Position numbers and translations under genes: made by a program. Source: a virus. Taken from it: 24,119 bases of DNA. Location of the stretch: positions 1 through 24,119 of the IMG/VR virus record IMGVR_UViG_3300050021_000236; one strand, written 5' to 3'. Shown here one piece after another: positions 3,495-24,119 of this stretch. Numbering within the stretch: the stretch's first letter is position 1; every line of letters starts with the position of its first letter. The notes beneath the pieces are model-generated. The model was not told the origin of the DNA. It did not search any database and saw only the letters and a list, made by a program, of their open reading frames with translations.

Positions 3495-4496
3495 CTACTC
3501 CTCTTGCGGTGGCATAACTTTCAGCCGTGTTTCACTGAAAATCTTCTGAGCAAACTCAGGATTATCAGTGAGGAAAGAAACTGCTTGCTCAAGCCCCTGC
3601 CCGCACCTCTCACCTTTGTAGCTATACCATGACCCTGACTTTTCTGCAACACCGTGGTCAACGGCTAGTTTCAAGAGGTCATGAATCTGAGAGTAGCCGC
3701 GTCCATATATTAGCGGACACTCGGCTTCACAAAATGGAGCCGCGACCTTGTTCTTGACGACCTTCAGCTTGTTCATTGAGCCGTAGACGACATCACCGTC
3801 TTTCATCGCAGGTCCCTTGCGGACTTCAATGCGCATTGACGAGTAGAACTTCAGTGCTCTGCCGCCGGTAGTAACTTCCGGATTGCCGAACATGACTCCA
3901 ATCTTCTCACGCACTTGGTTGATGAAGATGAGACTGGTGCGCGACCGAGAAGTTGCTCCAGTTAGCTTGCGCATTGCTTGAGACATCAGACGCGCTTGCA
4001 ATCCCATCTGTGCGTCACCGAACTCACCATCAAGCTCGGCTTTCGGCACAAGAGCTGCAACGGAGTCAACTACGATCACATCAAAGGCATTCGTGCGAAT
4101 CAGTCCCTCAGTAAGCTCAAGCGCTTGCTCACCATTGTCCGGCTGTGAAATGATCAGGTCATCGACATTCACGCCGAGAGCGCGTGCATACTTCGGGTCG
4201 AGTGCGTGCTCTGCATCAATGAAAGCTGCTTCACCGCCAACAGCATTCGCCTGTGCGATGATTTGCAGTGCGAGTGTAGTCTTGCCGCCAGATTCCGGCC
4301 CGAAGACTTCAATGATGCGTCCTCGAGGAACTCCGCCAACACCAAGCGCGGCATCAAAGCTAAGAATGCCGGTAGGGATGACAGCGACTTTCATGGCCTT
4401 CGCTTTGCCGAGGCGCATGAGACATCCCTTGCCATGAACTTTCTCGAGGTTTACGATAGCAGCATCAATTGCTTTTTTGTTTTCAGCAGCGGTCAC
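3495..4496 (-). CDS. recA: RecA recombinase
   Basis: A full-length RecA core of 333 aa, aligning without gaps to E. coli RecA through its ATPase core. Walker A is GPESGGKTT at 66-74 (K72); the second S of the usual GPESSGKTT is G, a permitted variant. Catalytic E96 is in DAEHALDP, Walker B is [10 protein letters not shown] around 140-149, and loop L2 is [15 protein letters not shown]. It forms ATP-dependent filaments on single-stranded DNA for strand exchange. The acidic C-terminal tail is much shorter than in E. coli (ends KVMPPQEE), as in many phage RecAs, which usually loosens regulation of filament assembly. It starts 2 bases after the small membrane gene and is followed by the nucleotidase, so it is part of one leftward operon. 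Confidence 0.95.
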
Positions 4497-4867: not shown

Positions 4868-6520
4868 CTAAACTGTTACAGCCGCGGCACCAGCGTGCCA
4901 TTTCCCGCCGCAGAGAGTTACAACTGTGCGCTGCCCGTTCGGGTAGAGGACAACATGCGAGTGTGTCCAGGCAGATGGGCCAACCGTATAGCCCCAGTCA
5001 GCAGTCAACTTTGTTGATGTGCCGGCAACGTACAGCCCGTGATAGATTCCAGCCACGTGCGTGTGCCCAGTTGTTGCTTTCGTGCCGATCTTGCTCAAGT
5101 TGCCAGGAGCACCGTACACACCATTCGGGCCGAGGTTTCCGTGCATCCCACATTCAACCCCACAGACAGTGAACGGCTCATCCGGTAGCAGGAATTTTGC
5201 CGCGCCGGGCTTCATGCCGCCATCCACTTCAAAAATATGCTGCATCAAGTTGACGTTCTTCGGCAACTTGCCGCTGCGCATTTCTGCATACATGAAAGCT
5301 TGCAGCCGCAAAAAGAATTCTGCGTTGCCCGGATCCTTGCGGTAGTCGAAATCTTGCAGCCACTGCCTGAACCATCGGCGGTCGTGATTCGCGTCCGGCA
5401 GGATAGTCTGGCACCACTCACGCAAGTAAGACTCAAGCACAACTTTCGTGCGCTTGACTTCCTCAGTTACTTTCTGCAAGCCATTCAGCCATGTTTCAAA
5501 CTGCTCGTGATTGTCTTTGTGCTTGCGCGTGTGAGGATTGATTGATGCACCCTCCATCGCATCGTGCAGAAACTGAAACTTCGGATGCAGAGTATCGAGC
5601 ATGTCAAGAGAGGATGCAGTGCACACCGGATCAATCTTTGTTGCGTGCAAGTCTCCCCAGGTGATAGCTTCAACATAACAGCCCATAGAAATAACTTTGC
5701 CATTCTCTACGAGCACATTCAAGTCCTGAATGCTATGCCCGTTCTTGCGAGCAGCTACTTGCCGCACCCACCAGTTTCCCTTGCTGTCAACTTCAGCAAC
5801 AATGCAAGCGTACCGATGATGGTGCTCAGCCTTCAAGCCAGCTTTCTTCTGAACATAATTCATGAGAGTGACGCAGCCTGTCGTGTACAGCAGCTTAACA
5901 GGAGTGGCGGCAGTCGTCGCAACGGAGCGCATCTCGACTTTCGTATGCGGGAAAATCACACTCGACGGACCGACATAGGTTTCAAGTCCGGAAAGAGGAC
6001 TCTGTTCAGTCGGCTGAATGTTCATTTCGCCGCACCATGTAAGTCCGGGTGCGAGTTCGACGCGCTCATCACTGAAGTACGGCTTCAACCGCTCGTCAAA
6101 CCACAGCGAGTTCTCAGCGGCTTTTGCTTTGCCGCGCTTGACTGCGAGCTTGCCGTAGTGGTTCTGGTTGTAGGAGAAAGTGCCGACCATGATTCTTGCG
6201 TCGTAGAACTCAGCAAGAGCAAGCACGTTTTCCCAGAAGTCTTCGTGCACGAGCGTATTGTTCTGCGCTGCTGTCAGAATGTAACGCTTAATATTCTCAC
6301 CGCGTGGCAGTGATAACCTGTTTTCTTTTGTGCCACTGATCTTGCCGCCGGCTAGCGGCTTCTTTCCAGCTCCAGCATTCCTCAAATGATGGCGAATTGT
6401 GCTCCTCTGCAAGTTGAGTTCGTTAGCCACAGCAGAGATATTTCCGCCGTGCTTCTCGAAACATGAGACAACTTTCTTTTGCTGCTCAACGCCGTGCAAC
6501 TTTTGTTCAGCGCCAGCCAT
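4868..6520 (-). CDS. T5 A1-like HTH/metallophosphoesterase protein, 550 aa
   Basis: Residues 14-46 form a helix-turn-helix (NISAVANELNLQRSTIRHHL). The rest carries calcineurin-type metallophosphoesterase signatures in order: a possible first metal site at D107, GDLHA (289-293), NHDRR (378-382), GMHG (458-461) and GHTHVAG (485-491). The length is close to the A1 protein of phage T5, an early protein needed for host DNA degradation and take-over, and the domain arrangement fits the wider A1-like phage family. I infer a metal-dependent nuclease or phosphoesterase with a DNA-binding N-terminus acting early in infection. A transcription-regulator-only role is the main alternative. AAGAAAGG lies upstream of the ATG. 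It precedes recA and the deoxyribonucleotidase in the same orientation, a sensible grouping for breaking down host DNA. Confidence 0.68.
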   Translation of the reverse strand: MAGAEQKLHGVEQQKKVVSCFEKHGGNISAVANELNLQRSTIRHHLRNAGAGKKPLAGGKISGTKENRLSLPRGENIKRYILTAAQNNTLVHEDFWENVLALAEFYDARIMVGTFSYNQNHYGKLAVKRGKAKAAENSLWFDERLKPYFSDERVELAPGLTWCGEMNIQPTEQSPLSGLETYVGPSSVIFPHTKVEMRSVATTAATPVKLLYTTGCVTLMNYVQKKAGLKAEHHHRYACIVAEVDSKGNWWVRQVAARKNGHSIQDLNVLVENGKVISMGCYVEAITWGDLHATKIDPVCTASSLDMLDTLHPKFQFLHDAMEGASINPHTRKHKDNHEQFETWLNGLQKVTEEVKRTKVVLESYLREWCQTILPDANHDRRWFRQWLQDFDYRKDPGNAEFFLRLQAFMYAEMRSGKLPKNVNLMQHIFEVDGGMKPGAAKFLLPDEPFTVCGVECGMHGNLGPNGVYGAPGNLSKIGTKATTGHTHVAGIYHGLYVAGTSTKLTADWGYTVGPSAWTHSHVVLYPNGQRTVVTLCGGKWHAGAAAVTV

Positions 6521-22323: not shown

Positions 22324-22963
22324 TTATCCTTGTGAGTACGTGATCGCGCCAGTGACTTTGATCTTGATGTCCAACGAGCAAACTTTTGCCAGCGGTAATC
22401 CGCGAGTCACGTTCTCAACGATACCCAAGAAGGTCGCTGTGCCGAGACCGAGCGGATAGATCACTTGACACTGCACAGCCACACCGGCATTCTTGACAGC
22501 TTCAATAGCGATCTGCGATGCATCACCGGGGTAATAGAACCCCTTGATGTCCACAGTTCCCGGCTCTTTCGTAGAGCCAATGTAAGTGTCGACGCCGTTC
22601 GTAGTCAACATCGTGGTCGTCTTGTCCGTCGAAACCTTGTCACCGCTGAAAGTGACAGACTCGACGCCAGCAAGAACAGTCAGAGTGGACGGATTTCCGC
22701 CGACCGGCTCGAACTCGAAAGTGGTCCCTACAAACTTGTTACTCGCTTTGCAGCGGGAAGAATCTCTTCGGATCCCTCTCTCGTGATTCTTCTTATTCTC
22801 ACGAGTTCAGACTATCGCATCGCTCTTTCGAGCGCCCTCTCACTTAGTCGTTCACGGTGCTTTTCAGCTTCCGCCCTGTTAGCATCTCAGCTTCCAAGTC
22901 AATCAGAGTGGGTTTTATTAGGCCAAGGAAAGTTTAGCCTACAAAAGGTCCAGTAGTTGGCAT
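22324..22963 (-). CDS. Major tail tube protein, split by a group I intron (exons 22963-22936 and 22730-22324)
   Basis: Exon 1 (28 bases) encodes MPTTGPFVG plus the first base of a Leu codon; the unspliced frame then meets TAA at once. Exon 2 starts at 22730 and encodes LGTTFEFEPVGGNPSTLTVLAGVESVTFSGDKVS..., with DTYIGSTKEPGTVDIKGFYYPGD and a C-terminal TRGLPLAKVCSLDIKIKVTG. Together they give 144 aa, the size and beta-rich make-up of lambda gpV-like tube proteins that polymerise into the tail tube. The gene sits directly before G/G-T as expected. The upstream sequence has an AAGAG-type ribosome binding site. Nothing but splicing restores the frame neatly; without it only a 9-aa peptide or a start at the internal ATG 22611 (95 aa) is possible. 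Confidence 0.85.
22731..22935 (-). ncRNA. Group I self-splicing intron, 205 nt, no ORF
   Basis: P1: exon end UAGGCU (22941-22936) pairs with intron GGCCUA (22924-22919) over 6 bp, with the diagnostic U.G at the 5' splice site. P10: exon 2 AGGGA (22729-22725) pairs with intron UUUCCU bases 22930-22926 immediately 5' of the P1 strand. P7: GACUA (22849-22845) with UAGUC (22814-22810), the latter in the typical GAUAGUCUGAAC context. P8: CGCUC-GAAA-GAGCG (22834-22821). P9: CUCGUGA with UCACGAG (22805-22799 and 22786-22780). The last base is G (22731). The cut in the reading frame and the restored protein agree with these borders. P3-P6 pairings were not worked out with confidence. Confidence 0.87.
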
Positions 22964-23006
22964 TTCTTTTCTCTTTTCTTGTTACAAAATTTGTGAGAGT
23001 CTCCCC

Positions 23007-23582
23007 TCACATTATAGCTAAACTGTGACGCTCTTTTTCTTTGCGGAGGAGTTGTGCAGCGCTCATCCGATCACGCGTCTTTTGTGATAACTTCCAATGC
23101 TTGCCGAGTGCATTACTGTTGCCTTGCCGTGCAGCACTCATATTCTTGCGTGCTTCTGCACTACGCGGCTTACTGCGAATCTCTGGATGAAGCCTCAAAT
23201 ACTCAGTCAATTCTGGATGCTTTACTCCCAGTCCTGGCTTGATAATTTTATTCCGCTCTTTCAAGTACGGACGAGGTCTGCTCAACTTCTCAAGTGCTTC
23301 CACAGTGTGCTTGTAGCCAGTTGAACCTTCACCGCCATCAGTTCTGTTTCTGAGAATTCCTGTTCCGCTGTCCTTACGTCCGAACAACCGAATGTAGAAT
23401 TTCTCCATCTCAAAAGCTTCGGCTTCTGAACTCCAAAACTGAATCAATATCCGAGATTTTTCTTTCGGCTTCGGCACTGTACGAAATGCAAAGAAAGGAC
23501 GGCTCTCAACACCCTTTCCAACATAATAAGGTGTAGCATCCTCACGCAAATACATGTACGTGCAGAATCTTCTCATAAGCAA
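23007..23582 (-). CDS. GIY-YIG homing endonuclease with NUMOD3-like C-terminus, 191 aa
   Basis: The GIY-YIG module opens with TYMYLREDATPYYVGKG (about 8-24, with YMY and YYVGKG replacing GIY and YIG). R28 after the second motif is in the position of the catalytic arginine; E58/E60 in EAFEMEKFYI are candidates for the metal-binding glutamate, and NRTDGGEGSTGYKHT (79-93) is typical of phage GIY-YIG enzymes. The C-terminal half has NUMOD3-like DNA-binding repeats (SAEARKNMSAARQGN, then TRDRMSAAQ). It is free-standing, 43 bases upstream of the intron-split tail tube gene and in the same orientation. It is probably a mobile gene in the tail operon; the cleavage site is unknown. An in-frame ATG at residue 3 is an alternative start. 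Confidence 0.88.
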   Translation of the reverse strand: MLMRRFCTYMYLREDATPYYVGKGVESRPFFAFRTVPKPKEKSRILIQFWSSEAEAFEMEKFYIRLFGRKDSGTGILRNRTDGGEGSTGYKHTVEALEKLSRPRPYLKERNKIIKPGLGVKHPELTEYLRLHPEIRSKPRSAEARKNMSAARQGNSNALGKHWKLSQKTRDRMSAAQLLRKEKERHSLAIM

Positions 23583-23597
23583 TGTTCGGAGTTGATT

Positions 23598-23720
23598 TTA
23601 GAGCAGGAAGGGACACACAACTGCTTGTGAGACGCCACATCCTGAATCTACTTCAACCACCGGTCTTTCTGCTGCACTTGCTTGTCTTTCTACCGCAAAC
23701 TCGTGGCAATATGTCCACAT
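23598..23720 (-). CDS. Possible 40-aa small protein
   Basis: Between the DUF3168 gene stop and the homing endonuclease (23583-23733) the minus strand encodes a 40-aa frame, MWTYCHEFAVERQ..., ERPVVEVDSGCGVSQAVVCPF..., ending TAA. It starts 13 bases after the DUF3168 stop. The peptide has a balanced composition with Trp, three Cys and conserved-looking VVEVDSGCG, unlike random sequence. There is no strong Shine-Dalgarno, so it would rely on coupling. No family is recognised. Confidence 0.38.
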   Translation of the reverse strand: MWTYCHEFAVERQASAAERPVVEVDSGCGVSQAVVCPFLL

Positions 23721-23733
23721 AGTGTGACGGGCA

Positions 23734-24119
23734 TTATGCTGTTTCATTGAAGATCACAAGGAAAGTGAGATCGGTCACGAACATTGTTCCCTTGCCGATC
23801 GGAATTTTGCTGTCTGCTTCTCTCCTCAACCATACCCCCTGTGTCGTTGGGACAGCATTAGGCGGGACAGCAAGCAGTGTGTCTTTCACTATCTGAGCAA
23901 GCTTCTTGGCTTGCTTGTAGTTTGATCCGTAGCAAGACAGCATCCAGTGCGCTTGCCGCAGCGGGGCGGTACCAACCATAGTCTCTGCGAGTGGTTCCCC
24001 ATCTGCTTGTGAGTAGCAGATGTACGGCATCGTCAGCGCTGGCCCGTCGAGTGCTTCAACAGGGAAGAGCCCGTTCGTGCTGTCAGAACGCGAAGAGGTC
24101 GTCCCCAGCAGAGCCGTAA
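23734..24119 (-). CDS. DUF3168 tail-completion protein, 5' end beyond the window
   Basis: From ATG 24030 the frame gives 98 aa, but it is open upstream to the window edge without a stop, and the added residues are family-like (TALLGTTSSRSDSTNGLFP, then VEALDGPALTMPYICY). I therefore treat the gene as partial, with at least 127 aa visible. DUF3168 features: ALTMPYICYSQADGEPL, the Gly then RQAHWMLSCYGSNYKQAKKLAQIV helix and a beta-rich end (TMFVTDLTFLVIF). These proteins cap or complete the tail near the neck, and the gene normally precedes the tail tube gene, as here once the mobile endonuclease is removed. Confidence 0.75.
   Translation of the reverse strand, partial: TALLGTTSSRSDSTNGLFPVEALDGPALTMPYICYSQADGEPLAETMVGTAPLRQAHWMLSCYGSNYKQAKKLAQIVKDTLLAVPPNAVPTTQGVWLRREADSKIPIGKGTMFVTDLTFLVIFNETA

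Follow-up and report, generated by a model that had tools for sequence, protein, structure and literature searches.

A compact group I intron in a phage tail tube gene and an adjacent GIY-YIG endonuclease gene as a probable two-part mobile unit

The DNA analysed here, referred to as the window, spans positions 1 to 24,119 (24,119 nt) of the IMG/VR virus record IMGVR_UViG_3300050021_000236. Near one end, the minus strand carries, in reading order, a tail terminator gene (23734..24117; phrog_347, E=0.00046) whose 5' end lies beyond the window, a free-standing homing endonuclease gene of the GIY-YIG + NUMOD3 type (23007..23576) and a tail tube gene in two pieces. Exon 1 of the latter (22936..22963) comprises 28 nt, beginning at the ATG, a start conserved in intronless relatives, and ending with base 1 of codon 10, while exon 2 and the stop codon occupy 22324..22730; a 205-nt insert lies between them (22731..22935). 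A terminator-like hairpin (22992..23011, minus strand; a consensus match only, with 1.3 such sites in shuffles) is placed where the endonuclease gene ends, ahead of the ribosome-binding region of the tube gene. The same contig also encodes RecA (3495-4496, minus strand; Pfam RecA, E=1.8e-122).

Read from the ATG at 22963, the tube frame meets a TAA after 9 codons and one base (GTA GGC T/AA, the slash here and below marking the insertion site), and a standard ORF caller reports just a 95-aa fragment (22611-22324), as a preliminary description had predicted and the ORF list confirms. With 22935-22731 taken out, GGC T runs directly into TA GGG, and the frame encodes a 144-aa protein. In a profile search, this product matched the phrog_158 major tail protein with E=7e-12, as compared to 5.8e-8 for the 95-aa fragment alone, a family match that identifies it as a lambda-like tail tube protein and bears out the host gene proposed earlier. 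Scores against Pfam Phage_TTP_12 and the NCBIfam tube model were under cut-off, and AlphaFold models of both the tube protein and the endonuclease were of low confidence.

Comparison with seven relatives (L002-L008)—all from viral contigs and, like the window, metagenome assemblies—revealed precise empty sites. The insert is missing from L002, L003 and L005-L008. L005 and L006 carry the joined-exon sequence around the splice exactly (CCCTTTGTAGGCTTAGGGACG; given over the junction as GTAGGCTTAGGGAC), and L002, L003, L007 and L008 are uninterrupted through the same tube codons. Aligned to intronless relatives, the spliced protein is gap-free at the junction, which falls within a PFVGLG motif that is invariant in 6/6 aligned proteins and restored by splicing. 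The insert length, its borders and the 144-codon frame had thus been described exactly to the base; that homologues might instead translate the 205 bases was not seen, as the relatives read straight through the join.

The insert has the anatomy of a group I intron: a P1 with U.G at the splice point, a pseudoknotted P3-P7 core together with P4-P6 and P8, a P10 and a terminal G (22731). In P1, the internal guide sequence GGCCTA (22919..22924, minus strand) pairs with the 5' exon TAGGCT (22936-22941), and P10 joins TCCTT (22929-22925) to AGGGA (22729-22725) through 5 pairs, one of them G.U. The 5' arm of P3, CCCACTC (22906..22912, minus strand), pairs with GAGAGGG (22835-22841), and all 7 pairs covary across 53 introns; the fourth is an A.A mismatch in the window copy, a position at which a standard pair is missing in 10/53 introns. 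For P7, the arms GACTA (22845..22849, minus strand) and TAGTC (22810-22814) are invariant and formed part of the search pattern, so they offer no independent test. Covariation was found in 4/4 tested pairs of the GAAA-capped P8 hairpin CGCTC-GAAA-GAGCG (22821..22834, minus strand), while the P9 hairpin CTCGTGA/TCACGAG (22780..22805, minus strand; arms 22805-22799/22786-22780) was identified from the sequence. P1, P10, P7, P8, P9 and the terminal G, all listed in the preliminary description, are therefore present, and the intron indeed holds no ORF.

A search pattern derived from the core retrieved related introns from at least 119 environmental viral stretches, and 53 distinct intron cores from environmental phages were aligned for covariation analysis. 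Among these 53 cores, 96% of cells pair on a group I fold in which P3 and P7 cross, and 198 cells have both sides changed, against 62 in shuffles (0/500); shifting the partner by one column lowers pairing to 41-43%. The covariation signal resides in P3, P5, P6a and P8. In P4, P7 and the base of P6 nothing varies, largely a consequence of the search pattern having fixed these bases, and they contribute no covariation. Throughout the family, P1 varies with the host gene yet fits its own exon in most members, with the guide often ~10 nt from the splice site. Taken with the empty sites in relatives, these patterns make it very likely that the 205-nt insert self-splices as a group I intron.

The check suggested earlier, a search with the Rfam group I model RF00028, returned no match in the window, neither at the gathering cut-off nor even at E≤10, and likewise detected none of the family members in split genes of named phages. 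A match to RF00028 is a common diagnostic of group I introns, not a definition. The T4 introns scored 105, 40.3 and 35.7 bits against a cut-off of 50, two of them falling below it; because these controls show the model to be insensitive to this lineage, its silence on the window carries little weight. Covariation across the 53 introns and the empty-site relatives, rather than Rfam, decided the group I assignment.

According to profile searches, the family resides mainly in genes for major head proteins and tape measures, and also in those for a ribonucleotide reductase, a sigma factor and a portal protein. Group I introns in a phage structural gene are also known from orf142 of phage Twort, which the preliminary description had cited. 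A blastn search over 50,697 named phage records found the family in only four. In one record (MW202674.1, 1193-2708), the annotation divides a P22-like coat gene into two CDS and places a small hypothetical protein over the intron, and in phage CRP-118 (OR420741.1, 512-2585) a family intron lies between two ribonucleotide reductase CDS. Two environmental loci, L016 and L058, each contain two family introns, about 300 and 540 bp apart. A stop codon built into the 5' splice site was considered as a family rule and rejected, since it is not general.

Immediately upstream of the tube gene, the endonuclease ORF (ATG at 23576; the ORF finder's start is a TTG at 23582) stops 43 nt short of the tube ATG and 71 nt short of the intron. 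It matches phrog_15526, phrog_10829 and phrog_314 (homing endonuclease); in Pfam, NUMOD3 exceeds the cut-off and the GIY-YIG model gives only a sub-threshold match. Y9, Y20, R28, E60 and N79, the catalytic residues characteristic of GIY-YIG nucleases, are kept in five aligned sequences. With the two tyrosines, the arginine, the glutamate, the asparagine and a NUMOD-type DNA-binding tail, the predicted product is assigned to the GIY-YIG nucleases, and the gene looks intact. A second copy of the 5' exon upstream of the endonuclease gene is absent in the window, and we accordingly rejected a nested arrangement with the endonuclease gene inside the intron, as found at two other loci described below. 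As a side observation, an endonuclease relative in Synechococcus phage S-SRM01 (1486-2244 of the stretch compared) is labelled ‘translation initiation factor 2’, seemingly in error; the label also occurs in phages B23 and Sf-CH5.

Intron and endonuclease gene occur together. L004 carries both, like the window, and no endonuclease gene precedes the tube gene in 5/5 intronless relatives with upstream sequence (L002, L005, L006, L007 and L008). Searching for additional tube alleles, by alignment and via the 3' junction, returned no more intron carriers; a plasmid search yielded nothing convincing, and no cellular genomes with the tube protein were found. At and below 22678, the window and L002 show 3 mismatches over 10,283 bp, whereas from 24093 to 22678, around the intron and the endonuclease gene, 1,416 bp of the window are identical to L004. 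Beyond this tract, 24119-24089 agrees with L002 and not with L004, although this L002-type left flank is just 31 bp, at the contig end. Because the window is nearly identical to L002 outside the tract (22678..24093) and identical to L004 inside it, and L002 and L004 share only about 70-80% identity around it, an L002-like phage evidently received ~1.4 kb from an L004-like donor. Both breakpoints can be placed, in the tail terminator gene within 24089-24093 and in exon 2 within 22678-22684, and the sequence shared at them is limited to 5 bp (TCGCG) and 7 bp (TCTGACT). The received piece runs from within the tail terminator gene through the endonuclease gene, exon 1 and the intron to 47-54 bp into exon 2. 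The window and L002 thus appear to be a natural before/after pair for a recent joint transfer of intron and endonuclease gene. Given just two carriers and a tract common by descent, their co-occurrence amounts effectively to one transfer. In L004, the gap between the tube gene and the one that follows is ~330 bases longer than in the window (about 5279-5694).

In collaborative homing, a free-standing endonuclease targets the insertion site of an intron whose presence protects the carrier (PMC6083498; reviewed in PMC3984707). The locus has the corresponding parts, namely an ORF-less intron adjoining a free-standing endonuclease gene, present, absent and transferred jointly, albeit in one event with two carriers. 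From sequence, we consider it likely that the neighbouring endonuclease confers joint mobility, and that intron and GIY-YIG/NUMOD3 gene probably constitute a two-part unit of this type. The intron would remove itself from the tail-tube mRNA, giving the full 144-aa tube protein; the endonuclease would cleave tube genes that lack the intron, in or close to their first codons; recombination repair, for which the phage-borne RecA could serve, would copy the endonuclease gene, exon 1, the intron and some of exon 2 into the recipient; and the new carrier would be protected, its target split by the intron. Thanks to the co-converted exon flank, P1 and P10 remain fitted to the exons, which matters because the own exon of L002 (GTTGGTT/TGGGAAC) would probably match the intron guide poorly. 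The preliminary description had called an intron so close to the start codon unusual. This stands as regards the position, which now has a likely cause in the upstream gene: the intron would sit there because it has to disrupt the target of the nuclease encoded just upstream. The earlier reading is hence supported, but the adjoining endonuclease gene, the recombination tract and the membership in a large family were absent from it.

Could the intron, although genuine, be passive cargo of an endonuclease that homes for itself into the intergenic region between the tail terminator and tube genes? Free-standing endonuclease genes between conserved phage genes are common (PMC10448857), 1.1 kb separate the left breakpoint from the intron, with the tract spanning the endonuclease gene fully, and this explanation conflicts with no sequence fact. 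Yet the intron starts so shortly after the endonuclease gene, the right breakpoint lies so close beyond the insertion site (47-54 bp), and other endonuclease families likewise adjoin 5'-proximal introns, so that we regard it as unlikely, if with an appreciable chance of being right. A somewhat smaller chance attaches to ordinary phage homologous recombination having moved the tract with no endonuclease cut. Phages are mosaic and the window encodes RecA, but the breakpoints fall in roughly 70-80% identical DNA with just 5-7 bp in common, and the swapped piece consists of the endonuclease gene, the intron and short flanks only, which together make this improbable.

That the mosaic is an assembly chimera, or the split tube gene artefactual or dead, we consider very improbable. 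Metagenome assembly of all contigs and the location of the left flank at a contig end would allow it, but L004, a separate contig, also has the intron and endonuclease gene, the exon 1 differences from relatives are largely synonymous, and short-read misjoins via 5- and 7-bp overlaps at both ends of one element are unlikely. Finally, translational bypassing, with ribosomes skipping the 205 nt and no RNA splicing, is scarcely credible: TTTGTAGG is present at both ends of the insert and bypassing in T4 gene 60 was mobilised by a neighbouring endonuclease, but known bypass elements measure ~50 nt, landing on the repeat would produce PFVGTTF and lose the conserved LG, and the insert has a full covarying group I core with P1 and P10 fitting the exons.

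Two further sets in the intron family fit the collaborative arrangement that we favour for the window: in each, a gene whose intron falls within codons 2-6 is immediately preceded by an endonuclease gene. L086 and L106 have a GIY-YIG gene 5 or 62 nt before the ATG of a split gene that has no PHROG match, and an intron after 16 nt of exon (ATGGCACAAGGTGGCT/). In L022, L048 and L126, an HNH gene lies 8 nt before the ATG, and the intron follows ATG GCT. This insertion site, ATG GCT/AAT ACA (protein MA/NTI), is shared by L050, L064 and L012, in each case in head genes. L050 and L064 have introns of about 760 nt with an HNH gene within the P1 loop, homologous to that of L022 (48% identity over 151 aa); for L012, no endonuclease gene was found in the stretch examined. 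Tentatively, with the odds somewhat against it, these loci may reflect a large lineage of compact group I introns that Rfam does not see, carried by uncultivated phages chiefly within head and tail genes, which repeatedly pairs with varied endonuclease families just upstream of the start codon, with homologous genes inside or just outside the intron at ATG GCT/.

Several components have precedents. The F-CphI/psbA system of cyanophage S-PM2 similarly combines a group I intron with a free-standing endonuclease gene beside the split gene, and there the intron blocks cutting of the carrier, which for the window is only proposed from sequence (PMC6083498). It differs in its Endo VII-like nuclease, as opposed to GIY-YIG/NUMOD3, and in its host gene; in the window this is a virion tail gene entered 28 nt from the ATG, with a near-isogenic pair with and without the intron. 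In phage ICP1, the large terminase gene has an intron and, beside the N-terminal exon and outside the intron, a T5orf172 gene of the GIY-YIG superfamily; the gene is another one, splicing was demonstrated by RNA-seq and RT-PCR, and a with/without pair is not described in the accessible portion of the report (PMC10448857). The 265-bp intron in a minor tail gene of mycobacteriophage BAKA is, like ours, a short ORF-less group I-type element revealed by an intronless relative, but it sits in a different tail gene, was confirmed by RT-PCR and, in the accessible text, has no neighbouring endonuclease tied to it (PMC3706429). Tail genes with short ORF-less introns (BAKA) and split genes flanked by an endonuclease gene (S-PM2 psbA, ICP1 terminase) are already known. 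In the literature collection searched, neither this intron lineage nor a lambda-like tail tube gene so arranged nor such a with/without pair was found to be described, which argues weakly for their novelty.

Together, L002 (without), the window (with) and L004 (donor) would permit direct testing of cleavage, protection and co-conversion. If the proposed lineage is real, the family would record the interconversion of nested and two-part mobile introns, arrangements whose origin is called unclear in PMC10448857. The family also draws attention to a class of introns, interrupting head and tail genes, that Rfam scans and gene callers alike overlook, so that major virion proteins are left truncated in the annotation of environmental phages.
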